From Hyphobacterium sp. CCMP332 (lineage in GTDB: Bacteria; Bacteroidota; Bacteroidia; Cytophagales; CCMP332), in assembly GCA_014323545.1 (NCBI GenBank), contig CP058647.1:626001-690000 (forward strand): DNA of 64,000 nt, written 5' to 3'. The stretch's first letter is position 1. The number at the start of each line of letters is the position of its first letter. The notes under the pieces were generated by a model. It saw only the letters and a program-made list of their open reading frames with translations, searched no databases and was not told the DNA's origin. Positions 1 to 34,260 of this stretch are shown one piece after another. A program made the translations under genes and the position numbers.

Positions 1-412
1 ATGAAGCCGTTCTATTGGTTGGGCCTATCGATCCCGCAACAAATCTGGGTTTTTCCGGTTCTTTTGCACTGAATTCGTTCGACACTTCTTTTGCAATTTT
101 TGCAGAAGCCAGATTCATTTTATAAACTTCGGATTCAAGCCCGTAGTCTGCCTGAGCCAGTCTGTTGCTGGTAAATGTATTCGTTTCGGCAATATCGGCA
201 CCAGCTTCAAAATATTTTGCGTGGATTTCCTTAATTATTTCCGGCTGTGTTAATGACAATAAATCATTATTGCCCTTTAAGGACATTGAATGATCTTTGT
301 AAATATGACCGCGAAAGTCCTCTTCCTCCAACTTGTATTGTTGTATCATAGTACCCATGGCACCATCTAAAACCAGTATTTTTCTTTTCAGAATATCTCT
401 TATATCTGTCAT
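1..412 (-). CDS. metH: Methionine synthase (cobalamin-dependent), N-terminal part
   Basis: The gene reads leftward off the window edge, so only the first 137 codons are present. Its product should transfer a methyl group from methyltetrahydrofolate to homocysteine. Visible motifs of the N-terminal homocysteine S-methyltransferase domain are [10 protein letters not shown] near residue 14, ETNTFTSN near residue 60 and [11 protein letters not shown] at the truncated end. The ATG at 412 follows the P1 helix of a SAM riboswitch by 13 nt, which supports both the start and the assignment, because S-box elements control methionine genes. The zinc-ligand cysteines and the folate and B12 domains lie outside. 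Whether the gene is complete or split (short MetH-type enzymes exist) cannot be seen. Confidence 0.93.
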
Positions 413-425
413 CTTATCTGTTTAG

Positions 426-559
426 CTTATTGAGAAAGTGTTTGGGAAGAGTCGCATCTTCACTCATCTTTCCCCATTAAAGGGGGTGGGAAGTAGCACC
501 CGACTAGCTCGGGTTGCTAAGACATCAACGGGCCCATTCCCTCAGTCTTTCTCGATAAG
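426..559 (-). promoter_or_regulatory. SAM-I (S-box) riboswitch upstream of metH
   Basis: On the minus strand the leader shows the S-box core in order: CTTATCgAGA, GAGGGA, GGGCCC, TGA, GCAACC, GGTGCTA, TTCC and AAAGATGAG. The P1 helix pairs CTTATCGAGAAAG (559-547) with CTTTCTCAATAAG (438-426). S-box aptamers bind S-adenosylmethionine and repress methionine genes when SAM is plentiful. P1 ends only 13 nt before the metH ATG, and no terminator hairpin with a T-run can be fitted between them, so control is probably not classical attenuation. Confidence 0.95.
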
Positions 560-651
560 TATTACAAAGAAAAAGATAAATCTTCATTTTTAATAATATA
601 TTTCGGTGAATAGTTCAGTTTGTGCATTTTTGGCAAAATCTTGATTAAAAT

Positions 652-1557
652 TTGAAATTAGCTGCAATTGACATTGGCTCCAACGCCATTCGCTTTCAAA
701 TATCCCGTGTCATAGAAGATGATGGCGAAATGAAAATTAAAAAGTTGGAATACGTGCGTTTTCCGCTTAGGCTCGGACAAGATGTATTCAACCTCAATGA
801 AATCAGTGAAAAGAATCAGGAAAAATTTTTTAAACTGATGAAAGCCTTCAAATTATTGATGGATTTATACGAAGTGGATCATTATATGGCTTGTGCTACC
901 TCTGCGATGCGCGAAGCAAAAAATGGTGTTGAAATTGCTCGTCAAATTGAACGAAAACTCGATTTTGACATCAATATTATCAATGGTGATGAAGAAGCAT
1001 GGCTGATCAACAAAGTTATTCTCAACAGCTTAAATGAAGAACATACAGTACACATTGATGTGGGTGGTGGCAGTACAGAGATTAATGTTTACAATGGGCG
1101 AAAAAAGGTCAATTCGGAATCTTTTAAAATAGGGTCTGTTAGAAATCTTCAGGGCAAGGATACACCTGAAATTTGGGAAATAATGGAAAAATGGGTCAAA
1201 AAAAATATTATGGGCCTTGATAACTTAGTTGCCATAGGAACCGGTGGAAATATCAATAAAATCTATGAATTGGGGAATACAAAAAGAGACAACTCTATAA
1301 CTATTAAAAATTTTCAAAAAACACTCAATGAGATTGAGAAGATGTCAATGGAATATCGAATGAATCATTTAATGCTCAACCCTGATCGGGCGGATGTGAT
1401 TGTACCGGCATCAAAGATTTATTTATCGATAATGAAATGGGCTAATGCCAAAAAAATTGTAGTTCCACAAGTTGGTTTAAAAGATGGAATGATGGCACTG
1501 TTGATTGACAAACATTATAAAGCCTGGCGAAAATCCAGAATTAATCAAATAGTCTAA
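652..1557 (+). CDS. Ppx/GppA family phosphatase (exopolyphosphatase type)
   Basis: A 301-residue single-domain member of the ASKHA-fold Ppx/GppA family, which removes phosphate from polyphosphate or from pppGpp. Visible motifs are the phosphate-1 loop AAIDIGSNAIRF at residues 4-15, GDEEAWLI near 113, the phosphate-2 loop IDVGGGSTEI near 135 and GTGGNINKI near 197. It lacks the C-terminal HD-like domain of the roughly 500-residue E. coli enzymes, as is usual for short family members. The start is TTG at 652, since an in-frame TAA lies at 646-648 and the residues after TTG match the family N terminus. It converges on ppk with a 17 bp overlap, which makes polyphosphate the likely substrate. A second paralogue lies at 41892. 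Confidence 0.85.
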   Translation: MKLAAIDIGSNAIRFQISRVIEDDGEMKIKKLEYVRFPLRLGQDVFNLNEISEKNQEKFFKLMKAFKLLMDLYEVDHYMACATSAMREAKNGVEIARQIERKLDFDINIINGDEEAWLINKVILNSLNEEHTVHIDVGGGSTEINVYNGRKKVNSESFKIGSVRNLQGKDTPEIWEIMEKWVKKNIMGLDNLVAIGTGGNINKIYELGNTKRDNSITIKNFQKTLNEIEKMSMEYRMNHLMLNPDRADVIVPASKIYLSIMKWANAKKIVVPQVGLKDGMMALLIDKHYKAWRKSRINQIV

Positions 1558-3655
1558 CTGAGTCAATGATGTTTCGGGTTACATCAAAAAATTCTTTGTG
1601 AATATCAAAAGATAGGCCTTCAAAAGTTTCAAGTTTTTCATAACTGCCATCTTCCAGCATTTCATAGGAATTGACGTTATCATTCAAATTATAAACCAAT
1701 ATATTTATAGCCTCTTTTTTGGCTTTGCGATCGTTAATCATGAATAGAGATTCTATTCTTCGGTCAAAACTTCTTACCATAATATCAGCACTTCCACCAT
1801 AAATTATTGGGTCGCCTTCATTATGAAAATAAAATATCCTCGAATGCTCAAGAAAATCACCTACAATCGATCGCACGGTAATATTTTCACTTAGGCCCTT
1901 TCTTCTAGGTCTTAAACAACATATTCCTCTAACAATCAAATGAATATTGACACCGGCCTGACTGGCTTCATAAAGTTCGTCAATTGTTCTACGATCCTCT
2001 AATGAATTTATTTTAATACAAATTCCTGATGGTTTCCCTTCTAAAGCATTCTCTTTCTCCTTATTAATAAGATCGATCAATGAATTTCTAAGATCTTTTG
2101 GAGCAGTTAAAAGCGATTTATAAATACTAGGTGCAGAATGGCCCGTAATTACATTGAAGAATTCAGAAACATCATTAGCATATAATTCATTGGTTGTCAA
2201 TAGACCCAAATCCGTATACAGCTTGGAAGTACTTTCATTATAATTGCCTGTACCCAAATGCACATATCTAATGACTTTATCTTCAGTTTTTCTAACTATG
2301 AGAAGCAATTTTGTATGCGTTTTTAATGCAGACATTCCGTAAATCACAAAAACACCGGCCTTTTGTAGTTTAGCGGCTTCTCTTAAATTATTTTCCTCAT
2401 CAAAACGGGCTTTTACCTCAAAGAGAACAGAAACGTGGATTCCATTTTCCGCGGCTTTTAACAATGCACTCGTCACTCTGCTCCCCTTTGCCAATCGATA
2501 AATTGTAATTTTTATGGCAAGAACATTAGGGTCGTCTGCTGCCGTTTCAAGGAGGTCAATAACCGGATGTATACTGTTATACGGATGATGAAGAAGTATA
2601 TCATTTGCTTCGAGATATTCCATAATATCCGTATCCTCTTCTTTTTCTACATGCCTGTAAGAGAGAGGTAGAACAGGCGATGGCAGTGTGGGTATTTTGT
2701 CCTTAAATTCATTATGATTTATAATCTGCCAAAGACTTGTAAAATCCAAAATTCTGTCAAACTCGAAAATTGCATCCTCCTCCAGCTCCCATCTTTCCTT
2801 AAGGATTCGTTTTAGTGATTCCAATGAACCCGATTCAATTTCAAGCCGAACCACCCTTCCTGTTTTTCTTTTTTTGAGTTTATGTTTTAACTCATCAATA
2901 AAATCCATTTCAAGATCATCACTTTCTTCGAGTGTAAAATCTCCATTTCTGGTGATCCTGATCAATTTCACATTTTCAATAAAGATATTGCGATACAATT
3001 TGTCTATTTCGGAACGAATAATTTCCTGAATAGGCACAAATACAATTTTGTTCCCCCTGTTGATTTGATAATACTTAGGTAAGTTTTGAGGAATCTGAAC
3101 AAAAGAGAGCTTTTTTCTTTCCCTACTTCTTCGACTGGGTTTAGTAACCACCGCAAAAACAGGAATAGCATTCATTAAAACCGGGAATGTATGATAATTA
3201 TCATACACCATCGGTGTTAGCATCGGAAATATTGTACCTCTGAAATACTCTTTGATTTCATCAATTTCCTCAGGCTTCAAAGAATTTACATCTGATATTT
3301 CAAATCCATTCTTATCAAAAAGAGGAACAAGTTGTTTGTAATAGCAATCGTATTGCCGGGCTACAAATTCCTGAGCCCTTGCCATAAGCATTTGTTTAAA
3401 AGGCCCCTCTCTTAAACCGGAATAATCAATTCTCTTTTTGCCGTAATCAATATAATTGTACAAACTGCCCACCCGAATCATAAAAAACTCATCCAGATTG
3501 GATTCGGTTATGGCTAAAAATTTCATCCTTTCAAAGAGAGTTCGATTGGCATCCAGTGCCTGATCTAATACCCGATGATTGAATTTTAACCAACTCAGGT
3601 CTCTAGAGATATATTTACTCGAATCTATCTTATTGACGACCTTCGCTTCCGGCAT
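1541..3655 (-). CDS. ppk1: Polyphosphate kinase 1
   Basis: A 704-residue protein of normal Ppk1 length that reversibly makes inorganic polyphosphate from ATP. The N-terminal domain starts with SRDLSWLKFNHRVLDQA near residue 18. The region IKITIYRLAKGS near 385 belongs to the first phospholipase-D-like C-terminal domain. The autophosphorylated histidine is expected in YVHLGTGNYNESTSKLYTD near residue 465, and KTHTKLLLIVRK lies just before it. The ATG at 3655 is 23 nt downstream of the gyrB stop, so the two may be cotranscribed. The 3' end overlaps the convergent Ppx/GppA gene, pairing synthesis and breakdown of polyphosphate in one locus. Confidence 0.96.
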   Translation of the reverse strand: MPEAKVVNKIDSSKYISRDLSWLKFNHRVLDQALDANRTLFERMKFLAITESNLDEFFMIRVGSLYNYIDYGKKRIDYSGLREGPFKQMLMARAQEFVARQYDCYYKQLVPLFDKNGFEISDVNSLKPEEIDEIKEYFRGTIFPMLTPMVYDNYHTFPVLMNAIPVFAVVTKPSRRSRERKKLSFVQIPQNLPKYYQINRGNKIVFVPIQEIIRSEIDKLYRNIFIENVKLIRITRNGDFTLEESDDLEMDFIDELKHKLKKRKTGRVVRLEIESGSLESLKRILKERWELEEDAIFEFDRILDFTSLWQIINHNEFKDKIPTLPSPVLPLSYRHVEKEEDTDIMEYLEANDILLHHPYNSIHPVIDLLETAADDPNVLAIKITIYRLAKGSRVTSALLKAAENGIHVSVLFEVKARFDEENNLREAAKLQKAGVFVIYGMSALKTHTKLLLIVRKTEDKVIRYVHLGTGNYNESTSKLYTDLGLLTTNELYANDVSEFFNVITGHSAPSIYKSLLTAPKDLRNSLIDLINKEKENALEGKPSGICIKINSLEDRRTIDELYEASQAGVNIHLIVRGICCLRPRRKGLSENITVRSIVGDFLEHSRIFYFHNEGDPIIYGGSADIMVRSFDRRIESLFMINDRKAKKEAINILVYNLNDNVNSYEMLEDGSYEKLETFEGLSFDIHKEFFDVTRNIIDSVRLFD

Positions 3656-3684
3656 AAAGTATTTGTTGTTTTCTTCTTTGAAAT

Positions 3685-5643
<1,959 letters not shown>

Positions 5644-5654
5644 TTATTTTTTAA

Positions 5655-5667
5655 GGCTGCTAAAATA
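5655..5667 (-). promoter_or_regulatory. Possible -7 element for gyrB
   Basis: On the minus strand TATTTTAG (5667-5660) is one mismatch from the Bacteroidota -7 consensus TAnnTTTG and is followed at once by CAGCC. No convincing -33 TTTG lies 19-21 nt upstream. The GCAGCC extension resembles that of the ribosomal promoters at 54006 and 63720. Confidence 0.35.
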
Positions 5668-5686
5668 CAATTTTAAACCGAAAATC

Positions 5687-5704
5687 CGGCATTTAAATGT
5701 GCCG
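5687..5704 (-). terminator. Weak hairpin after the LysE-type gene
   Basis: CGGCA (5704-5700) pairs with TGCCG (5691-5687) on the minus strand, about 43 nt past the stop of the LysE-type gene, and a short ATTTT follows. It could terminate that gene, but it also lies in the gyrB promoter region and could serve there instead. Confidence 0.3.
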
Positions 5705-5746
5705 TAAATTTCTGCGAAACTCTGCTTTTTAAGCCTAAAAATCAAG

Positions 5747-6388
5747 TTAAAAAATACCTTTCCAATCCAATAGTAAGCTGAAGAAAAAAAGGATCATTCT
5801 GGCACCGAGAATTATAAACAGAATGGCAAGAATTCTATTAACAATAATTAATATTTTATCCTTAATCAACAATCTTATTTTATTGGCAAAATAGCCTTTG
5901 AGTAAATCGGTAATAAGGATAGTTGCAAGCAATCCCGAAAAGAAAAATCTGAATTCCAAAGGGGAATAGGTCTGTCGAACTCCAACGGCGCCAATAACCC
6001 CGATCCAAATCATTAGGGTAAAAGGATTAACCCCATTAATTAACATTCCTTTGAAAAAATACCACAATATACGATGTCCTTTTTCAAATGAGATTTCATC
6101 TTTAATTTTAACTTTTTTATTAAAGCTTGTAATCCCTAAGCCTATTAACACCATTCCAGAAACAAGACTAAATGTCTGCTGAAATAAATTTGATTCCATT
6201 GCTCCTGAGAATCCAAAATATATCAGTGTTACAATTATCAAGTCACTTAATATGATGCCAAAGGCAAAAAATACTGCCGGCACAAAGCCACCTTCTAGGC
6301 TTACCTTTATCAAATAGAAAAAAGCAGGACCTACGAACAGGGCCAGAATTAAGCCCACAAAAAATCCATCCAGAATTATTTCAAACAC
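5747..6388 (-). CDS. LysE-type amino-acid exporter family protein
   Basis: A 213-residue integral membrane protein with about six hydrophobic segments, the size and layout of the LysE/RhtB translocator superfamily. The N terminus has GLILALFVGPAFFYLIKVSLEGG, cut here to its features: a glycine- and proline-bearing first helix at residues 11-33, where family members carry the conserved GPxF/GPG element. A later helix contains NGVNPFTLMIWIGVIG near 119. Substrate is unknown; family members export amino acids or small cationic solutes. The gene is divergent from the FabH gene at 6489 across 100 bp, and gyrB lies downstream after a weak hairpin. Confidence 0.78.
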   Translation of the reverse strand: MFEIILDGFFVGLILALFVGPAFFYLIKVSLEGGFVPAVFFAFGIILSDLIIVTLIYFGFSGAMESNLFQQTFSLVSGMVLIGLGITSFNKKVKIKDEISFEKGHRILWYFFKGMLINGVNPFTLMIWIGVIGAVGVRQTYSPLEFRFFFSGLLATILITDLLKGYFANKIRLLIKDKILIIVNRILAILFIILGARMILFFFSLLLDWKGIF

Positions 6389-6488
6389 AATTCAATTTTA
6401 AGAAAATTGATTTTAAGCGAGCCTTTAGCACAAAATAATATTCAATAATGATCAAATTTTGTAATATTGTTTAAAGACCTAAATCAAT

Positions 6489-7487
6489 ATGAGAAATTCC
6501 AAAATCGCCGGAATGGGCTTTTATGTGCCTGAAAAAGTTGTTAAAAACAGCGATCTTCAAAAATTTATGGATACCAATGATGAATGGATCCAGGAACGGA
6601 CCGGTATTAAAGAAAGAAGATTTTACGATAAGAAGAAAGATACCGTTGCCAATATGGGCGTAAAAGCTGCAAAAATTGCCTTAGAACGGGCAAATATTAA
6701 AGCCGATGATCTTGATTTTATCATTTTCGCAACCCTTAGTCCCGATTATTTTTTCCCGGGTTCAGGTGTATTGGTTCAAAAAGAACTAGGAGTAAAAGAG
6801 ATCGGTGCTCTTGATGTTCGAAATCAATGTTCGGGTTTTATTTATGCTCTATCCATTGCAGACAATTTTATTAAAACCGGTATGTATGACAATGTACTGG
6901 TAATAGGATCTGAAATTCATTCTTCGGGTCTCGACATGAGCACAAGAGGAAGAAATGTATCGGTTATATTTGGTGATGGTGCCGGTGCATGTGTGCTCAA
7001 ACCTGAAAAAGATAGTAACAAAGGTATTTTAACAACGAATTTACACTCTCAAGGTGAATTTGCCGAAGAACTTGCAGTAATACATCCGGGCTCAAGTGGT
7101 GATGAAAGACTTACAAAAGAAATGATCGATGATGCTAGAATCTATCCCTACATGAATGGCAATTTTGTCTTTAAGCATGCGGTTACAAGAATGCCTGAAG
7201 CTATTATGGAAGCATTGAATAAAACCGGTAAAAAAATTGAAGATGTAGATTTGGTCATTCCACATCAGGCCAATGCAAGAATTACGGAATTTGTAGCTCG
7301 AACCTTTAAACTGCCTCCTGAAAAAGTTGTAAGTAATATTCACAAATATGGAAATACAACTGCTGCATCCATTCCCATAGCCATGTGCGAAGCCTGGGAA
7401 GAAGGCCGATTCAAAGAAGGTGATTTGGTATGCCTTACAGCATTTGGTAGCGGCTTTACCTGGGCATCAGCGCTTGTTCAATTTTAA
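6489..7487 (+). CDS. fabH: 3-oxoacyl-ACP synthase III (FabH-type)
   Basis: A 332-residue thiolase-fold enzyme of the KAS III family, which condenses an acyl-CoA primer with malonyl-ACP to start fatty-acid synthesis. The N terminus has GMGFYVPEKVVKN and DEWIQERTGIKERRF. The catalytic cysteine is in DVRNQCSGFIYAL near residue 116, the histidine in VIPHQANARI near 258 and the asparagine in HKYGNTTAASIP near 288. No other fatty-acid genes are adjacent, so it may be one of several FabH paralogues and could have an accessory priming role. Its 3' end overlaps the convergent MATE gene by 32 bp. Confidence 0.9.
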   Translation: MRNSKIAGMGFYVPEKVVKNSDLQKFMDTNDEWIQERTGIKERRFYDKKKDTVANMGVKAAKIALERANIKADDLDFIIFATLSPDYFFPGSGVLVQKELGVKEIGALDVRNQCSGFIYALSIADNFIKTGMYDNVLVIGSEIHSSGLDMSTRGRNVSVIFGDGAGACVLKPEKDSNKGILTTNLHSQGEFAEELAVIHPGSSGDERLTKEMIDDARIYPYMNGNFVFKHAVTRMPEAIMEALNKTGKKIEDVDLVIPHQANARITEFVARTFKLPPEKVVSNIHKYGNTTAASIPIAMCEAWEEGRFKEGDLVCLTAFGSGFTWASALVQF

Positions 7488-8829
7488 TCAATCGTTTTGG
7501 TTTTGTTTTACGGAAAAAACGATAGCCCAATAATATGGCTGCCGAGCCCAAACCAATAATAAACCCATACCAAACGCCCTGAACACCCATATTGAGCCAA
7601 AAAGCAAAAATATATGAACAGGGAAGCCCTAAACCCCAATAGGAAAATACAGCTATCAAAGTGGGCCATTTTACATCGGAAAGGCCTCTTAGTGCTCCCA
7701 TTGCAGCAACTTGTAATCCATCAAAGATCTGGAATGCGGCAGAAATAATTATTAAACTCGATGCCATTTTTATAACGGAAATTTCTTCAACATATAAGGT
7801 TGGCAACCAGGTATTTAAAATAATAAATATCAATCCTGCAATGGCCATAAAAATTGCGGACATCTCCATGCCAATTTTGCCAACCGTTCTTACCATATCA
7901 AACTTCATAGCTCCGAGTTGATTTCCAACACGTATGGTTGAAGCAGCGCCCAAACCCGCTGCCATGACATAAGTTGCTGAGGCAATGCTTATTGCTATTT
8001 GATGGGAAGCTAATTCTCTGTAGCCAATCCAACCAACCATAATTGCTGATATAGAAAAAGCACCGGCTTCGAAAACCATTTGCATTCCACTAGGGCCACC
8101 TATATTTAGGATGTCGCGAATATTTGAAAGTCCAAGAGCCGAGCTTGAAACAACTTTTATCTTAAAATCTTTAAAGTCTCTTAAATATAATACTGCAAAC
8201 ATCATTCCCAGAGCCATTAATATTCTTGATATTAAAGTAGCATATCCCGCGCCCATTAATCCATATGCAGGAAAGCCAAGTTTGCCAAAAATGAGAATGT
8301 AATTGAGAATAATATTGAATGCATTGCCTAAGATACTAATGTACATGGCGGTTTTAGTAATGGAAACCCCATCTGCAAATTGTTTATAGTTTTGAAAAAC
8401 CATAAAGGGGATCATTGAAATTGCAATGACCTTTAAATAAGGAATTGCCAGTTCGACAATAAGAGTTTCCTGATCCAGGTATTGAAATATCCAGGTGCTG
8501 TAAAACATCAGCAAAAAAATCATCACTCCAATTCCTGTATTTACTAAAAGTCCGCTTTGTTGGAAGGTATTGATTCTGGAAATATTATTTTGTCCATGAG
8601 CATTTGCCACAAGCGGTGTCAGGCCAAATGACATACCTAATCCAAATACCATTGGCATAACCATAACAGTATTTGCAAGTGAAGAAGCAGCCAGTTTATC
8701 TGCTCCAATCTGACCTACCATTATATTATCTATCAGACCTGTCATGATATGACTCAAATAAGCCAGAGATACCGGATAAGCTAATAAAAATGTTTTTCGA
8801 TATTCTGAAAGTCTAGATTGAAGCTCCAT
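7456..8829 (-). CDS. MATE family multidrug/Na+ antiporter
   Basis: A 457-residue inner-membrane protein with about 12 hydrophobic segments in two similar halves, as in the NorM type of the MATE family. The first half contains LIDNIMVGQIGADKLAA near residue 31 and GLTPLVANAHGQNN near 66; the second contains IGYRELASHQIAISIAS near 268 and AASTIRVGNQLGA near 292, both characteristic. It should export cationic compounds using Na+ or H+. It is divergent from clpP and convergent with the FabH gene, so it is probably monocistronic. Confidence 0.92.
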   Translation of the reverse strand: MELQSRLSEYRKTFLLAYPVSLAYLSHIMTGLIDNIMVGQIGADKLAASSLANTVMVMPMVFGLGMSFGLTPLVANAHGQNNISRINTFQQSGLLVNTGIGVMIFLLMFYSTWIFQYLDQETLIVELAIPYLKVIAISMIPFMVFQNYKQFADGVSITKTAMYISILGNAFNIILNYILIFGKLGFPAYGLMGAGYATLISRILMALGMMFAVLYLRDFKDFKIKVVSSSALGLSNIRDILNIGGPSGMQMVFEAGAFSISAIMVGWIGYRELASHQIAISIASATYVMAAGLGAASTIRVGNQLGAMKFDMVRTVGKIGMEMSAIFMAIAGLIFIILNTWLPTLYVEEISVIKMASSLIIISAAFQIFDGLQVAAMGALRGLSDVKWPTLIAVFSYWGLGLPCSYIFAFWLNMGVQGVWYGFIIGLGSAAILLGYRFFRKTKPKRLIKIEQALMPR

Positions 8830-8891
8830 ATTGGGGGCGCAAATTTACTCAGATTTTCAAATGATTTTTATATACTATATAAATGTGTCAT

Positions 8892-8922
8892 TTTGTAATA
8901 CCAACGGAAGATTTTAGATTTG
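8892..8922 (+). promoter_or_regulatory. Bacteroidota-type promoter for clpP
   Basis: TTTG at 8892-8895 is separated by 19 nt from TAGATTTG at 8915-8922, an exact match to the Bacteroidota TTTG / TAnnTTTG consensus. Transcription should begin near 8928. This is inside a possible N-terminal extension of the clpP frame and argues for the internal ATG at 8943 as the true start. Confidence 0.7.
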
Positions 8923-8942
8923 ACCGCCTTAAAAAACAAACA

Positions 8943-9533
8943 ATGAATTCATCAGAAAAAAAAGACACAAAAGAAGAAGTAAAAGAGAAAAGCCTGCGTC
9001 AACAAATTGAGAAAACATTTCTCGATCAAAGGAAGGTCTTTCTTTGGGGAGCCGTAGATGATGAGTCTGCTGAAAAAATAGTTAATCAATTACTTTTTCT
9101 CGAAGCAAAAGAGCCAGGGAAAGTGATCAATTTTTATATTAACAGTCCCGGAGGAATAGTGACAAGCGGAATGGTAATAATGGATACCATGAAAATGATC
9201 AGCTCTCCGGTGCATACCATTTGCATGGGTATGGCGGCATCCATGGGTTCATTATTGTTATCTCAGGGAGAAAAAGGAAAGCGTACCATTTTCCCAAGTG
9301 GCAGGGTGATGATACATCAGCCGAGTATAGGAGGAATGCAAGGACGAGCATCAGACATTGAAATTACTGCTATTCAAATTCAAAAAACCAAGGAACTATC
9401 AGCAAAAATATTAGCAGATAATTGTGGCCAAAAATTTGAAAAAGTAATGGAAGATTTTGACCGCGACTATTGGATGGATGCTAAAGAAGCCATTGAATAT
9501 GGTATTGTAGATAAGGTTGAAAAATCTTTCTAA
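8943..9533 (+). CDS. clpP: ATP-dependent Clp protease proteolytic subunit
   Basis: A 196-residue serine protease that forms the tetradecameric barrel served by ClpX or ClpA/C unfoldases. The catalytic serine lies in [13 protein letters not shown] near residue 96, the histidine in RVMIHQPS near 121 and the aspartate in [13 protein letters not shown] near 171. FYINSPGG near 66 is also typical. The open frame reaches back to an ATG at 8883, but a promoter match at 8892-8922 lies inside that extension; starting at 8943, after an A-rich AAAAAACAAACA leader, gives the usual ClpP length. No clpX is adjacent. A second ClpP elsewhere in the genome is possible. Confidence 0.92.
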
Positions 9534-9545
9534 TCAATTCATGCT

Positions 9546-10454
9546 TTGAAATATATTTTTATAGTTGGAGTGGGCAGGTCAGGGACAACGCTTTTGCAAA
9601 GCATTCTGAATGCACACTCTGACATTGCTTTTACACCGGAAAGCCACTTCTTATATCACTATTTAAGTCCAAAATCAAATAAAAGGATTCCTAAAGACAA
9701 AGAAGAGTTAATCAATATCCTCGAAAAGGATGAGCATCTTAAAAGACTTCAACTTAACCTCAGCAATTTAACTCATGATTTAGAGTTGAATTCAAACATC
9801 TGGATCTATTTATTTAGGAGAATTCTCAATGCCTATGCCAAAAAAGAAAATGTCAATACCATTGGCGATAAGGATCCGATGAATTCCGGATTACTAAAAG
9901 TTATTAAAAAATATTTTCCTGAAGCATTGGTCATTCATATCATACGCGATCCCAGAGATGTTCTATTGTCAAGATTGAAATCTGACTGGGGAGCAAAATA
10001 CCCATTGTTAGCACATTTGGGAGATCATAAAGTTAGTCTCGAAAAAGCCATGACTGAAGGTCCCGAACTTTTTCAAGAAAATTATTTTGAAACACGCTAT
10101 GAAGACCTTATTGCTGATACTGAAAATGAAGTGAAAAAAATCTGCGGGTTTTTATCGGTTGATTTTGAATCTCAAATGCTCAACTTTTCAAAAAGTTCGG
10201 AAAAACTTGTGAGTAAAGAAGAGCGCCAATGGAAAGGAAATATTTTTGGTCAGATTATGACGAAAAATCAAGGTAAATGGAAAAAAGGCTTGAGCAATTT
10301 CCAAAAACAAATAAGTTCCTTAATTATAGGCAACCTGATTGTCAAATTGGGTTATGAAAAACCTGTTAAATACCCTCTTTACATGATAATCTTTAAATTA
10401 ATCTTTATTCCTATAGAAATTTATTTTAAACGTAAATACAAATTGCAGGATTGA
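9546..10454 (+). CDS. Sulfotransferase family protein
   Basis: A 302-residue PAPS-dependent sulfotransferase-fold protein, likely adding sulfate to a sugar of the surface polymer. The 5'-phosphosulfate-binding loop is GVGRSGTTLLQSILNAH at residues 8-24 and the 3'-phosphate-binding segment is HIIRDPRDVLLSRLKS near 134. The start is a TTG at 9546, because no in-frame ATG precedes the P-loop. The 3' end overlaps the next gene by 4 bp. It is the first gene of a plus-strand polysaccharide block and lies 12 nt after clpP, with no obvious promoter between them. A second sulfotransferase is at 18148. Confidence 0.85.
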   Translation: MKYIFIVGVGRSGTTLLQSILNAHSDIAFTPESHFLYHYLSPKSNKRIPKDKEELINILEKDEHLKRLQLNLSNLTHDLELNSNIWIYLFRRILNAYAKKENVNTIGDKDPMNSGLLKVIKKYFPEALVIHIIRDPRDVLLSRLKSDWGAKYPLLAHLGDHKVSLEKAMTEGPELFQENYFETRYEDLIADTENEVKKICGFLSVDFESQMLNFSKSSEKLVSKEERQWKGNIFGQIMTKNQGKWKKGLSNFQKQISSLIIGNLIVKLGYEKPVKYPLYMIIFKLIFIPIEIYFKRKYKLQD

Positions 10455-11509
10455 GTGTGCACAAATTGATATTGACCTCAGATTATGAAATTTATGGCAA
10501 TGGCAGCGGTGATGTTAATAATTGTCTGATAAAACCCACTGAGGAATTATTAAGCATTTGTGATACTCGCAATATACGCATGTGCTTTTTTGTTGATGTT
10601 TGTGAAATCTGGGCATTTGAATTGCTTGAAAAGCAAAATCCTAATTTCAATCACGCTTCTTCAATCAAAAATCAACTTATAAAAATTATTCAGTCAGGAC
10701 ATGACATTCAGTTGCATTTGCACCCTCAATGGATTGGTGCAAAATATGTTGAACAAAAATGGATCCTGAAATATCAATACTGGCGATTGTCAGAAACTTC
10801 TGCACTTGATTTTGGTGAATTTGGCAAAGGTATTTTCGGTCTCCTAAATAAAGGAAAGACCTGGTTGGAAAATTTAATTATACCTATTGATTCAAAATAT
10901 CAGTGTAAGTCATTTCGTGCAGGGGCATGGTGCATACAGCCTGAAGAAGATATTATTGAATCTCTTAAACGACTGGAATTCAAAAAAGAAAGCAGTGTGG
11001 CGAAGGGATTAAAATTTGAGGGTAGCTTAACCTTTTATGATTTTTCTTCATTGAAAGATTACCCAAACCAATGGCCCCTTGGATTAAATTTAATGGCAAT
11101 TGACAGTCAAAGCGGATTATTGGAGATTCCCATCGCTTCAGCTAAAGCAGGGCTCTTGGATCAGTTGAAGTTTGCTTACTTAAAACGAAAAAGAAAACAC
11201 CCGGTTTACCCGAACAAAAGTGGTGTAAGATTTTATCAAAAGGAAAGTTCAAGTCTATTAGAAAAAGTGAAAAGACACCTATTCCCCGGATATAGAATGT
11301 TAGATTTTGCCTCAGGAAGTACTTTTGAAGAACTGAAATTTATCACAGAATATCATATAAAAAAGCAAAGTGAAAACTCAAATATCATTGCAATTAGTCA
11401 TCCGAAAAACTTTGGGGTAAAAATCGAGTTTGAAAATTATCTAAATTGGTGTGATAAGAATGACAATATCACATTTGAATACAAAAACGAACCATATTTC
11501 TGGAGATAA
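10451..11509 (+). CDS. Polysaccharide deacetylase-like protein
   Basis: A 352-residue protein with elements of the NodB-type deacetylase barrel. LILTSDYEIYGNGSGD near residue 6 carries the first acidic position, CFFVDVCE near 44 the second strand, and HDIQLHLHPQW near 89 the histidine pair that normally holds the metal. The remaining sequence diverges, so catalysis is not certain. The frame opens at TTG 10451 and overlaps the sulfotransferase stop; GTG at 10457 is an equal alternative. It probably removes acetyl groups from an amino sugar of the polymer or its lipid-linked precursor. Two other proteins of this fold lie in the locus, at 17404 and 28673. Confidence 0.7.
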   Translation: MSVHKLILTSDYEIYGNGSGDVNNCLIKPTEELLSICDTRNIRMCFFVDVCEIWAFELLEKQNPNFNHASSIKNQLIKIIQSGHDIQLHLHPQWIGAKYVEQKWILKYQYWRLSETSALDFGEFGKGIFGLLNKGKTWLENLIIPIDSKYQCKSFRAGAWCIQPEEDIIESLKRLEFKKESSVAKGLKFEGSLTFYDFSSLKDYPNQWPLGLNLMAIDSQSGLLEIPIASAKAGLLDQLKFAYLKRKRKHPVYPNKSGVRFYQKESSSLLEKVKRHLFPGYRMLDFASGSTFEELKFITEYHIKKQSENSNIIAISHPKNFGVKIEFENYLNWCDKNDNITFEYKNEPYFWR

Positions 11510-30081: not shown

Positions 30082-31053
30082 ATGAAAAAAGTAGCAGTTT
30101 TTACTTCCGGTGGTGATGCCCCCGGAATGAATGCATGTGTTAGAGCAGCAGTTAGGGGAGCCATATATCATGGTGTTGAAATTTATGGCATTATGAAAGG
30201 ATACAATGGGATGATTCATGGTGAAATTAAACATCTCGCCGTGCGATCGGTAAGTAATATTATTCAAACCGGCGGAACAATTTTAAAGTCTGCACGATCC
30301 ATGGAATTCATGACAAAAGAAGGCAGGCAAAAGGCCTATGAAAACTTAAAAAAACACGAAATCGAGGGCTTAATTGCAATTGGTGGTAATGGAACATTTA
30401 CAGGTGCAAAAATATTTCACGAAGAATACGGGATTCCGACCGTCGGAGCACCGGGAACTATTGATAACGACCTTTATGGCACGGATTACACAATCGGTTA
30501 TGATACAGCGGTAAACACTGCTCTGGATGCCATTGATAAAATTAGAGACACGGCCAGTTCGCATGATCGTGTTTTCTTTATTGAGGTTATGGGTAGAGAT
30601 TCAGGATACATTGCAATATATACTGGTATAGGAGGTGGGGCTGAACTTATATTAGTACCAGAAACTGAAACCAGTATTGAAGATGTTAAAAATACACTTC
30701 AAAAGAGTTGGGACAAAAAAAAGTCCTCATCGATAATAGTCGTAGCCGAGGGTGACGAATTGGGAAATGCTAATGACGTTGCTGAAAAAGTTAAAAATGT
30801 CATGCCCAAGTTTGATTTTAGAGTGACTAACCTTGGTCATGTTCAAAGAGGAGGTACGCCAACTGCGGCAGACAGGGTTTTAGCGAGCAGACTTGGTCTT
30901 GGAGCTCTTGAAGGCTTAATTAGCGGCAAAACAAATGTGATGGCTGGCGTAGTTAACAATAAACTTGTTTATACGAATTTCGATGATGCCATAAATAAGA
31001 GCAAACCCATCAACCCAGAACTGCTGAGATTAAATACTATATTGAGTATCTAG
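30082..31053 (+). CDS. pfkA: 6-phosphofructokinase (PfkA type)
   Basis: A 323-residue enzyme of normal length that phosphorylates fructose 6-phosphate to the 1,6-bisphosphate, the committed step of glycolysis. FTSGGDAPGMNACVRAAVRG at residues 7-26 is the N-terminal nucleotide loop, APGTIDNDLYGTDYTIGYD near 124 has the catalytic aspartate, and VMGRDSGYIA near 171 and LGHVQRGGTPTAADR near 252 bind substrate. In the motif usually read as GGDG the sequence here is IGGNGTFTGA near 101, with Asn at the metal-binding Asp position. The glycine that follows favours ATP over pyrophosphate as donor. The gene is divergent from the deacetylase gene. Confidence 0.94.
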   Translation: MKKVAVFTSGGDAPGMNACVRAAVRGAIYHGVEIYGIMKGYNGMIHGEIKHLAVRSVSNIIQTGGTILKSARSMEFMTKEGRQKAYENLKKHEIEGLIAIGGNGTFTGAKIFHEEYGIPTVGAPGTIDNDLYGTDYTIGYDTAVNTALDAIDKIRDTASSHDRVFFIEVMGRDSGYIAIYTGIGGGAELILVPETETSIEDVKNTLQKSWDKKKSSSIIVVAEGDELGNANDVAEKVKNVMPKFDFRVTNLGHVQRGGTPTAADRVLASRLGLGALEGLISGKTNVMAGVVNNKLVYTNFDDAINKSKPINPELLRLNTILSI

Positions 31054-31976
31054 AAGTTATTTTTATTTCTTTCTACGAAATCTAGGTAGATAGATTTATA
31101 AAAATCCTCATTGGGATACTCAGTTAAAATTTCGTTATAACAAGAAAATGCATGAAGATAGAGCTTATTCTCTTCATAAAACATTGCTAAAATTAGTTTT
31201 TGAAGGGAGTGTTCCTCGTTTTGAATCTCAGTTTTTAACTTATTTAAATTTTGTTCAACTTTTTCTTTTTCTGCACCTGTTAACATTTCTATGGCATATG
31301 GTTGAGAATTGACTTCTTCCATCCCGGAGCCTGTTACCATGAGAAAAAGTCCCCCTTCTTCTGCAAGGTTTATTTGCAGTTTGGAAAGGTCATACCAGTT
31401 AGACTCCGTTTCTTTTCTCGCAACAGTTTCGCTATATAAATTTTGAATCTCAAGCTTATATGTACTTACATCATCAATGGATTTCCATTTTATAATTGCA
31501 TCATCAAAATTCAATACTCTTGAAGTTTTAGGAATAAACATTTGAATATCAGCATCATCTCCCGCAGCTCTTGAGACTGCTCCCGTAACATTTAAATTAT
31601 TGAGCTTGGAAGCACTTACATCACTATCATCGGATGTGCTCATTTTTGCGATTAAAAATTCTCCGTACTGACTAGCTACAGATGAACCCTTGGTTAAAAC
31701 ATTTTTTGATAATGCATCAATATCGTGAACCTGCGGAGTTTTAATTTCCATAGTCTTTCCTGATTTGTGCATCATTCCTATATATCCTCCTTCAGATAAT
31801 TTTATTTCAGATCCTGCAAAAAGAGTGCTTCCGGTACGAATTGGTTTCCATTCCGAGGTTCCTTTGGTTTTTACAGTATTATCACCGCGATTGGCAAGAA
31901 CTCTGAATTCAAAACTTTGAGCAAATGATTCCAGTGAAAAAACCAGAAAGAAAGCGATAAAAACTAATTGTCTCAT
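31050..31976 (-). CDS. Secreted FecR-like domain protein
   Basis: A 308-residue protein with an N-terminal signal peptide (MRQLVFIAFFLVFSLESFAQ, likely cleaved after SFAQ). Residues 20-90 look like a FecR-type beta domain: GDNTVKTKGTSEWKPIRTGS followed by ELKL-like and GYIGMMHKSGKTMEI strands. The C-terminal third (about 220-308) is helical, with EKVEQNLNKLKTEIQNEE and a TPR-like AFSCYNEILTEYPNEDFYKS. The start at 31976 gives the signal peptide at the true N terminus; the longer frame to 32018 runs into the upstream gene. It lies 1 nt after the CHASE2 gene, so the two are one operon and probably work together at the inner membrane and periplasm. Function unknown. Confidence 0.75.
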   Translation of the reverse strand: MRQLVFIAFFLVFSLESFAQSFEFRVLANRGDNTVKTKGTSEWKPIRTGSTLFAGSEIKLSEGGYIGMMHKSGKTMEIKTPQVHDIDALSKNVLTKGSSVASQYGEFLIAKMSTSDDSDVSASKLNNLNVTGAVSRAAGDDADIQMFIPKTSRVLNFDDAIIKWKSIDDVSTYKLEIQNLYSETVARKETESNWYDLSKLQINLAEEGGLFLMVTGSGMEEVNSQPYAIEMLTGAEKEKVEQNLNKLKTEIQNEEHSLQKLILAMFYEENKLYLHAFSCYNEILTEYPNEDFYKSIYLDFVERNKNNF

Positions 31977-31977
31977 T

Positions 31978-33198
31978 TTACTTACTTTTTTTAAAGATAG
32001 TACTTTCAATACTTCCATATAAATTTTTAATTACCCCCTGATATACCTCCAAAGCATCTCCGGCAAGCAATACAGCAACAATTCCAAGCGTGATATTTAG
32101 CTTGTATTGAAATTCATGAAAAATTACGATAATCAAAAACAGTATAAGGATAACTTCAACAATTTGAATCAATTTAGTCAATCCATCATACCATAATTGC
32201 TTTTTCATATAAATAATAGTAAATAAGTATACGTTGATAAAGCATAAAAAGATACCAGCTAATATACTTTGCCATTCACTCATTACATTTATATAATCCT
32301 CGTTGAGAATCATAGCGATTATATTTGCATGAATAGTTACACCAAACATATCCGGGTTTGTTCTTCCGGCATAATTTTCATTTAATGGTGTATAATATTT
32401 ATCCTCCCATGAATGATCTTCAAAATCATTCCCCAAAAAACCAAATATGACAATTTTATCTTTAATTATGCTGGGATCAAAATTCTCCATAAACACGTCT
32501 GAAACGTCCAAAGAGAAAAATTTTCCACCTAACCTTCCATAACCTCTATAATTGATAACTTCATAATTGTTATTCCGACTTAATAGCTTTTTTACTTTTT
32601 CCGGTTCATAATAATTCGCCAATTCAACTGAAAAAGCATTTTGAACCTCGCCTTTTACTTTTTCATTTGACGTAAATGTTCGGTTGGTTTTAAACTGATC
32701 CTGACTTTTAGCATCACTTATCAGATTTGCAAAGCCAAGCGAAGATGCATATTGAGTAAAAAAGGGATTTGAACCGATTAAGGTATCGCACTCCCCTTTC
32801 CCTTCGCCACATTCAGCAAGTTTACTCGCCAATACGATATTTTCAGTATTTGATATAGCGGCAGCTAGGAGGCTATCTCCTATCGGATCTTTGGGTTCAG
32901 CAAAAAAACAATCAAGCCCGATCACTTTGGGTTTATACTTATTTATAATATTAATTTGTTCTGCAATTCCGGCTCGCGGCAACAAACCTATATTTACCAA
33001 AACAATATTGTCATCTGCATTGGTTTCGCCTCGAAATTGAGAAAAAACTATGTCTGTGGTTTCTACATCTTTTAATGCATCCCCAATGGGATCCAGTACA
33101 TCAAAAATGCCAAATGCAGAAAATTGAAATACAACCCCAATCAGAAAAAAAATAAAGGTTGTCCCAAAAATCGAATCAAGTAAAATTCTTTTTCTCAT
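31978..33198 (-). CDS. CHASE2 domain membrane protein without output domain
   Basis: A 406-residue protein. A transmembrane helix at about residues 8-30 is followed by an extracytoplasmic CHASE2 domain (about 40-300): NIVLVNIGLLPRAGIAEQIN near 64, KPKVIGLDCFFAEPKDP near 89, DKIVIFGFLGNDFEDHSW near 247 and MFGVTIHANIIAMILNED near 285. Three helices then close the protein (about 313-332, 345-362, 368-385), and only about 20 residues follow. CHASE2 normally feeds a kinase, cyclase or GGDEF domain; none is present. The partner is the FecR-like protein encoded 1 nt downstream. It is divergent from meaB. Confidence 0.82.
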   Translation of the reverse strand: MRKRILLDSIFGTTFIFFLIGVVFQFSAFGIFDVLDPIGDALKDVETTDIVFSQFRGETNADDNIVLVNIGLLPRAGIAEQINIINKYKPKVIGLDCFFAEPKDPIGDSLLAAAISNTENIVLASKLAECGEGKGECDTLIGSNPFFTQYASSLGFANLISDAKSQDQFKTNRTFTSNEKVKGEVQNAFSVELANYYEPEKVKKLLSRNNNYEVINYRGYGRLGGKFFSLDVSDVFMENFDPSIIKDKIVIFGFLGNDFEDHSWEDKYYTPLNENYAGRTNPDMFGVTIHANIIAMILNEDYINVMSEWQSILAGIFLCFINVYLFTIIYMKKQLWYDGLTKLIQIVEVILILFLIIVIFHEFQYKLNITLGIVAVLLAGDALEVYQGVIKNLYGSIESTIFKKSK

Positions 33199-33270: not shown

Positions 33271-34260
33271 TTGATAAAATATTCAAAAAAAGAACTAATA
33301 AAAGGAATTAAAAATTCTGAGCGGGTTTTATTAAGTCGTGCCATAACACTTGCTGAAAGTCAAAAGGAAGAACACAGAAGGTATATCCATGATATTATTG
33401 AAAAATTATTACCGGATACAGGTAAATCCTTAAGAATTGGAATAACTGGTGTTCCGGGTGTAGGGAAAAGCACATTTATTGAGTCATTTGGAGCATATCT
33501 AATCAATTTGGGCCATAAAGTAGCTGTTTTGACTATCGATCCAAGCAGCAAACAAAGTGGCGGAAGTATTCTCGGAGACAAAACCAGGATGCCTAAATTA
33601 GCCGTTGCAGATAATGCCTATATACGCCCCTCACCTGCTGGAATCTCTCTGGGTGGCGTTGCCGGCAAAACAAGAGAAGCCATGCTTCTATGCGAAGCCG
33701 CCGGTTATAATATCGTTTTAGTTGAAACCGTTGGTGTCGGTCAGTCTGAAACTGCAGTTAGTGAAATGGTAGATGTTTTTTTATTACTAATGCTTTCGGG
33801 TGCCGGAGACGAATTGCAAGGCATAAAAAAAGGAATAATGGAAAGTGCTGACATTATTGCAATAAACAAATGCGATGGCGACAACATTAAAAAATCTATG
33901 GAAGCGCAAATGGAATATAAAAGAGCAGTACAAATGTTTCCAAGAAAATTTGAGAACTGGATAACTGAAGTTTTGACTGTCTCTGCTCTGGAAAACGTGG
34001 GAATGGAAGAAATCTGGCAAAAATTATTGAAATTTGAATCCTTAAGTAAAAAATCAAATCATTTTGAAAGAAACCGATCAGGTCAATTGATAAATTGGTT
34101 TGAAACTGAACTTCATTTTTTACTTAATCATCACTTAATGAAAACAAAAGGTATTCAGGATAATGTGAAAAGAATGAAAAGTAAAATAAGCAAAGGCGAA
34201 ATTTCCTCATTCAGAGCGGCTGATATGATTTTTTACGAATTTCTAAGTAAAGTATCGTAA
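33271..34260 (+). CDS. meaB: MeaB/ArgK family G3E GTPase, methylmalonyl-CoA mutase chaperone
   Basis: A 329-residue P-loop GTPase. GITGVPGVGKSTFIESFG near residue 58 is the Walker A loop, LTIDPSSKQSGGSILGDKTR near 89 the Mg-binding segment, VETVGVGQSE near 151 the G3 region and AINKCDGDN near 197 the guanine-specificity motif. MeaB protects and reloads the B12 cofactor of methylmalonyl-CoA mutase. The start appears to be TTG 33271. The mutase genes are not adjacent, but a propionyl-CoA carboxylase beta subunit and a BtuF-like protein lie within 9 kb, fitting a propionate to succinyl-CoA route. Confidence 0.92.
   Translation: MIKYSKKELIKGIKNSERVLLSRAITLAESQKEEHRRYIHDIIEKLLPDTGKSLRIGITGVPGVGKSTFIESFGAYLINLGHKVAVLTIDPSSKQSGGSILGDKTRMPKLAVADNAYIRPSPAGISLGGVAGKTREAMLLCEAAGYNIVLVETVGVGQSETAVSEMVDVFLLLMLSGAGDELQGIKKGIMESADIIAINKCDGDNIKKSMEAQMEYKRAVQMFPRKFENWITEVLTVSALENVGMEEIWQKLLKFESLSKKSNHFERNRSGQLINWFETELHFLLNHHLMKTKGIQDNVKRMKSKISKGEISSFRAADMIFYEFLSKVS

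Follow-up and report, generated by a model that had tools for sequence, protein, structure and literature searches.

A CHASE2 receptor without fused output and its secreted partner form a conserved two-gene unit in Bacteroidota

The ligand or stimulus of CHASE2 domains is given as not known in the description of the BiofilmReg system (PMC5192318). Several CHASE2 receptors have been reported next to a secreted protein. In magnetotactic bacteria, the gene encoding MtxA is followed by a CHASE2-adenylate cyclase gene (PMC4439547). The BiofilmReg operon includes a response regulator, a LysM-FecR protein and a CHASE2-PAS histidine kinase (PMC5192318). A cluster from Campylobacterota encodes a CHASE2-adenylate cyclase, a FecR outer-membrane protein, a TPR protein and a phosphodiesterase, which its authors infer to belong to one pathway (PMC9239204). 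Furthermore, a caspase-CHASE2 fusion was described in Trichodesmium (PMC2853523). Here, we describe a related pair of genes from the 3.33 Mb genome of Hyphobacterium sp. CCMP332, carried by a stretch of 64,000 nucleotides (nt) (C1:626001-690000, hereafter the window). The first gene encodes a CHASE2 receptor devoid of any fused output domain and the second one a secreted partner protein. Their association as a conserved two-protein unit is well supported: the genes are paired, the pair is spread over the phylum without a fused output, the two proteins evolve in a correlated way and one natural fusion joins them.

As in the MtxA system, a secreted protein with an immunoglobulin-like (Ig) and TPR-like C-terminal domain is encoded beside a CHASE2 receptor; however, the CHASE2 gene comes second and carries a cyclase in that system, whereas it comes first and lacks an output here. 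As in BiofilmReg, the secreted partner gene adjoins the gene of a CHASE2 receptor whose domain is followed by three helices, but the window pair, flanked by pfkA and meaB, is associated with neither a kinase nor a response regulator, and has neither LysM nor a Pfam FecR domain. The Campylobacterota cluster is similar in combining CHASE2 with a secreted protein, of FecR type, but its cyclase and phosphodiesterase are absent beside the window pair. The Trichodesmium fusion also ties CHASE2 to a caspase-fold protease, in a single protein there but in separate genes in loci related to ours, and with none in the window. On cyanobacterial plasmids, CHASE2 genes are likewise often followed by a gene for a DUF928 protein (from overlapping to 109 nt downstream; L291, L296, L298, L300, L301 and L303), and two of these CHASE2 proteins, of 409 and 439 amino acids, also lack an output; some others, unlike ours, bear CHAT or AAA at their N-terminus. 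A CHAT gene is annotated beside DUF928 in five cyanobacterial records (L291, L294, L295, L300 and L301). The first-pass annotation of the window had proposed a possible undescribed system. This can be retained only in part, since output-bearing CHASE2 proteins have already been published together with a secreted partner, of FecR type or MtxA: the novelty looks limited to the output-less, sometimes protease-linked form, for which our literature searches found no published account. The main text of a paper on conflict systems mentions neither CHASE2 nor FecR (PMC7159879).

Both genes, and all the features given below for their products, lie on the minus strand. The CHASE2 gene (P0002, 406 amino acids, 31978..33198) is followed after 1 nt by the partner gene (P0001, 308 amino acids, 31050..31976), as the first-pass annotation had placed them. 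The partner is likely to start at the ATG at 31976; an alternative start 14 codons upstream would overlap CHASE2. Two genes that serve here as context only border the pair on the plus strand. meaB (33271..34260; PF03308, E 1.9e-95) is divergent and located 72 nt upstream of CHASE2, and pfkA (30082..31053; PF00365, E 1e-109) is convergent and overlaps the end of the partner gene by 4 nt. Because of these orientations, the two genes form a closed unit, and the secreted protein is indeed the only partner encoded at this locus. The open reading frames (ORFs) of the window and the Pfam content of the neighbours reveal no kinase or cyclase adjoining the pair, a linkage that would have contradicted the initial proposal.

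The pair is the rule in the order. PF05226 was found in 122 of 291 genomes, and 102 stretches, a part of the places listed, were fetched. With the window included, 10 of the 103 stretches were dropped for lack of a family CHASE2 below 1e-60 (L037, L093 and L118-L125, where it is weak or absent, L093 and L124 nevertheless having the partner), leaving 93 loci. The partner is the next gene on the same strand in 80 of them, 59 times within 100 nt; two loci stop at a contig end and 11 are without partner. Similarly, among loci with record titles (the best 80 of 379, sharing genomes with the order set), 73 have the partner, two are cut at a contig end and five are without. This second set includes Marivirga, Fulvivirga, Imperialibacter, Reichenbachiella, Ekhidna, Chryseolinea and Hymenobacter. 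The adjacency is thus beyond chance, and does not have the rarity that would have spoken against a unit.

In the order set, the meaB family is present in 41 loci, in 40 of which it adjoins CHASE2 on the opposite strand. After it, the three commonest neighbour families are found in 16, 14 and 12 loci, in most cases on the opposite strand, and no third gene on the same strand recurs beside the pair. On a 602 kb plasmid of Bernardetia (L292, 4568-8446), meaB, CHASE2 and an unnamed protein of 322 amino acids are encoded in the same order. Copy number also varies at some loci: output-less CHASE2 genes are in tandem before one partner gene in L038, L107, L112 and L142 and at a contig end in L079, and one CHASE2 gene is followed by two or three partner genes in L046, L050, L051, L114, L115 and L133.

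The association extends outside the order. Among 20 stretches, each picked for a match to the partner, 16 encode CHASE2, with the partner directly downstream in 15 (fused in one case, L157) and upstream in L158; for instance, it directly follows CHASE2 in L152, and both genes are present in L150. In a sample of the phylum, CHASE2 was detected in 24 of the 25 genomes with a partner match below 1e-10, compared with 111 of 296 overall; in the single exception (G520), a CHAT gene adjoins the partner-like gene. Moreover, evolutionary distances of CHASE2 and partner are correlated (r 0.75 for 93 triples; 0.74 after removal of the meaB distances), a value reached by 0 of 2000 permutations. Finally, one draft genome (G493, locus L157, 7133-9385) supplies a single case of fusion, in which CHASE2 and partner form one frame of 750 amino acids whose junction has no in-frame start codon. 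The residues 408-426 of the fusion make a hydrophobic segment, the former signal peptide, after the CHASE2 helices, the fourth of which falls under the hydropathy threshold. Since this segment is kept, the partner part would be brought back into the periplasm.

The CHASE2 protein of the window matches PF05226 with an E value of 3.1e-27 and 96.2 bits, for a cut-off of 26.3, over residues 73-321 (32236..32982), a domain predicted from the topology to be mostly periplasmic. No second Pfam family was found on this chain at E<=1, hence no kinase, cyclase, sigma54, SpoIIE or other enzyme domain as a fused output. Hydropathy indicates one hydrophobic segment before the domain (residues 5-23, 33130..33186) and three behind it, with some 20 residues left at the end. 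An AlphaFold2 model built with 80 relatives (mean predicted local distance difference test, pLDDT, 92) has a first helix at residues 2-27, an alpha/beta domain and three helices; model, alignment and hydropathy place the latter at about residues 308-390 (32029..32277), with conserved W336, Y337, Q345, E384 and Y386. The first-pass description of a CHASE2 protein ending in three helices and a short tail without output is therefore correct. A PDB fold search with the CHASE2 domain returned no match at E<=0.001; a second fold comparison gave at best Z 5.2 for a helix pair and about 4.5 for the domain, which excludes no family, and a PDB sequence search with the CHASE2 alignment gave no significant match. 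NCBIfam has a family for neither this protein nor its partner.

Output-less CHASE2 proteins are found mainly in one part of the CHASE2 tree. Among 54 rows, most of them separate from the cyclase clade, which has a support of 98/97, and from the sigma54 clade, which gathers six of seven rows at 100/100. A cluster of 30 output-less rows reaches 93/93, a support under the star level of the tool, and several long rows fall outside this cluster, including the second CHASE2 of the Hyphobacterium genome and the output-less L121. Pfam analysis of ten relatives assigned Guanylate_cyc as output to five, Sigma54_activat to two and SpoIIE to one. CHASE2 is fused to sigma54-activator AAA domains in L251 and L253 according to Pfam, and in L252 and L254-L257 by tree position only. 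The absence of an output domain at either end could also mean that the receptor is decaying, having lost its output, and is about to disappear. However, complete CHASE2 frames span a narrow range of lengths in the titled loci (396-474 amino acids), residues are conserved, the partner is retained and the group is phylum-wide, so that we regard decay as very improbable indeed.

Residue conservation bears on another explanation, in which the signal goes inward. In the 32 output-less rows, E or D at position 384 is found in 26, Y386 in 27, Y337 in 27, Q345 in 21 and W336 in 20. In the 13 cyclase-type rows, none of the output-less residues ranks among the three commonest letters of positions 384, 336, 337 and 345, and Y386 is found in five; the difference is most secure at 384 and 345, because many cyclase rows have gaps in the membrane region. 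These residues might form a patch, made of the loop between helices 2 and 3 and the end of helix 4, through which the membrane bundle would act on an unlinked cytoplasmic or membrane protein, the partner only aiding sensing, like that of the CHASE2-kinase and CHASE2-cyclase operons in the literature. In agreement with this, output-bearing relatives carry cytoplasmic enzymes, according to Pfam and to published systems (PMC5192318, PMC9239204). Furthermore, on the plasmid of Calothrix 336/3 (L300, 333-6585), an output-less CHASE2 gene lies 29 nt after a separate TIR-CHAT gene and is followed by DUF928 and convergent CHAT genes. Nevertheless, the order set lacks a recurrent third gene on the same strand beside the pair, and only a short tail with little conservation follows helix 4. 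We consider the inward route quite possible but doubtful.

The partner is a secreted protein, as had been proposed. Its signal peptide (residues 1-19, 31920..31976), recognized from the sequence, the family consensus and hydropathy, ends with AQ in the consensus; the cut is presumed to occur before Q20, which is nearly invariant across the family. Most Bacteroidetes substrates of signal peptidase I expose an N-terminal Gln (PMC5837995). In the model (pLDDT 88, predicted template modelling score 0.70), the signal peptide is followed by a small beta domain (residues 20-97, 31686..31919), a loose, partly helical stretch, an Ig-like domain (residues 141-232, 31281..31556; model and fold comparison) and four helices. 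The latter form a TPR-like tail (residues 234-303, 31068..31277; model, fold comparison, PDB and Pfam searches), consistent with the helical tail announced by the first-pass annotation. The loose stretch includes the conserved motif TGAVSR (residues 131-136, 31569..31586), which corresponds to GSVxR in the family and is located in a region where pLDDT drops to about 51-63. This linker was found in 167 of 191 partner members, and G132 and R136 are invariant in 74 rows. The pattern is retained in the fusion with CHASE2, appears as ASVDR in a fusion with a caspase domain and is present, in a looser version, in most distant members.

On the contrary, the FecR-type domain that had been attributed to the partner was not found. 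None of 74 family members matches PF04773 at E<=0.01, and hhalign gave a probability of 0.5% when the family was compared with a profile built on 18 FecR domains of the Hyphobacterium genome and related ones; two FecR matches exist elsewhere in the genome. FecR anti-sigma systems have a cytoplasmic anti-sigma part, a membrane helix and an adjoining sigma-factor gene. P0001 shows an N-terminal signal peptide only, and pfkA, CHASE2 and meaB as neighbours. DUF928 (PF06051) was also compared with the partner family: it matches one of 74 members (E 7.1e-4), and direct comparison with a DUF928 protein was not significant. Most members of an alignment of 11 DUF928 proteins do contain a G-x-V-x-R pattern, at a different place of the chain; its likeness to the partner linker is probably a coincidence unless shown otherwise.

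The second half of the partner model resembles the C-terminal domain of MtxA. Residues 143-308 align with 4z29_B with Z 8.8 and a root-mean-square deviation (rmsd) of 3.6 over 147 of 169 residues; since many Ig domains reach Z values of about 8, it is the long coverage, not Z, that singles out this match. PF22121 (MtxA_C) is weakly matched by 4 of 74 members (best E 0.0049), not including P0001 itself, and the PDB sequence search with the partner alignment gave below 0.01 only TPR-type matches, all to the tail. The resemblance in fold agrees with the gene neighbourhood, because the MtxA gene adjoins a CHASE2-cyclase gene. The beta domain aligns (VIA-align, Z 11.9, rmsd 2.6, 75 residues) with 5ix9, an entry described by its depositors as a cell surface anchoring domain. 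Together with the OmpA/PD40 proteins encoded in some loci, this may point to a non-signalling structural or assembly unit, in which CHASE2 would provide anchorage while the secreted protein would act as a scaffold or in retention at the surface. However, function cannot be read from a fold match, the beta domain is a small one and relatives of CHASE2 are described as receptors; such a structural role seems quite unlikely.

Our preferred interpretation, which we hold at slightly less than even confidence, is that the pair forms one envelope receptor acting through a separate output protein. At loci with a linked secreted protease, this protease would be the output, and in the window an unlinked protein would take this role. 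The first-pass annotation had suggested a signal passed outward or to an unlinked protein; both the proteases of some related loci and the residues conserved in the membrane helices bear on this suggestion. The CHASE2 protein would be an inner-membrane protein that exposes its sensing domain to the periplasm and bears an enzyme at neither end. The secreted partner, through its beta domain, GSVxR linker and MtxA-like Ig and helical half, would bind the CHASE2 domain in the periplasm, and the signal sensed could be the state of the envelope. In several related loci, the output would most likely be a cysteine protease with a caspase or papain fold, which is secreted and comes under control outside the cytoplasm. 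At the locus of the window, the target would be encoded elsewhere.

The gene content of related loci suggests such proteases. Caspase-fold genes are present in 8 of 36 atypical or outside-order stretches (L003, L093, L124, L143, L147, L149, L151 and L159) when 0.25 are expected from genome counts (Poisson 3e-10, the expectation including the L003 and L093 genes, which were found by hmmscan or a local profile and missed by the genome search). In L143 and L149, the genes are ordered CHASE2, partner, papain-like protease, small protein and caspase. In L147, the beta domain and linker of the partner are fused to a caspase domain (Peptidase_C14, E 2.8e-16) and an outer-membrane barrel, and this fusion adjoins an output-less CHASE2. 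L158 carries a papain-like gene, and L144 has a TPR-CHAT gene 5 nt upstream. The linked proteases start with signal peptides, as judged by eye. When a pair is counted as protease-linked if a caspase, papain or CHAT gene lies within about 8 kb, the window pair is excluded whereas the second locus of its own genome is included (L003, G000:C1:538000-552000, 4720-10509); there, a divergent CHASE2 is preceded by genes encoding OmpA/PD40, WD40-caspase and partner-like proteins, in this order.

Several observations weigh against this interpretation. The excess of caspase-fold genes in the 36 stretches is inflated, since these were selected for their atypical layout or their origin outside the order. 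Among 100 order stretches, only L093 and L124 carry a caspase gene, and the window ORFs gave no match to local caspase, CHAT and papain profiles. CHAT genes are found in 5 of 100 order stretches (L044, L048, L060, L085 and L119, the latter with a weak CHASE2), which shows nothing because CHAT is very common: it is encoded by 77 of 80 CHASE2-positive genomes of the order (80 of 122 such genomes were covered by the search), mostly in several copies, up to at least 25. Partner-like genes occur without CHASE2 in 4 of the 20 outside-order stretches (L141, L146, L148 and L160). As for the correlated distances, they show common inheritance as a unit rather than contact, and the meaB distances, which correlate at only 0.23 with either protein, make a weak control. 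Finally, the residues conserved in the membrane helices suit an inward route equally well.

A more specific hypothesis is an envelope caspase switch, in which CHASE2 and its partner would control proteases across the membrane, the GSVxR linker being a contact or even a cut site; lineages without a linked protease would then use one encoded elsewhere. Cyanobacterial caspase homologues prefer Arg or Lys at P1 (PMC7475262). We regard this switch as unlikely, although it is less so than the purely structural role.

For comparison, stretches around output-bearing CHASE2s carry caspase genes in 2 of 20 cases (L248 and L260). In L260 (G517:C1:3480000-3491000, 1-7054), two caspase-type genes and one papain-like gene are located upstream of a CHASE2 with a SpoIIE output. 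CHAT was also considered as a general effector and was rejected, its genes being too common genome-wide (77 of 80). At least 25 CHAT matches each were counted in three Cytophagales genomes (G003, G046 and G101). The 13 CHAT matches in the 80 titled loci correspond mostly to one convergent neighbour in related genomes. The co-occurrence of CHAT with CHASE2 (77 of 80 positive genomes compared with 8 of 20 negative ones) was left unused, being uncorrected for kinship or tiny genomes.

Although no search was aimed at this question, we are not aware of any controller for the caspase-fold proteins that Bacteroidota secrete. CHASE2 with a secreted partner occurs in four phyla, Bacteroidota and Cyanobacteria in the present analysis and Pseudomonadota and Campylobacterota in published work. 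Since CHASE2 travels with a secreted partner across these phyla, this partner is the obvious place to seek its ligand. A receptor that has kept its sensing half and its partner phylum-wide without a fused output can be viewed as a clean system to ask what CHASE2 senses.

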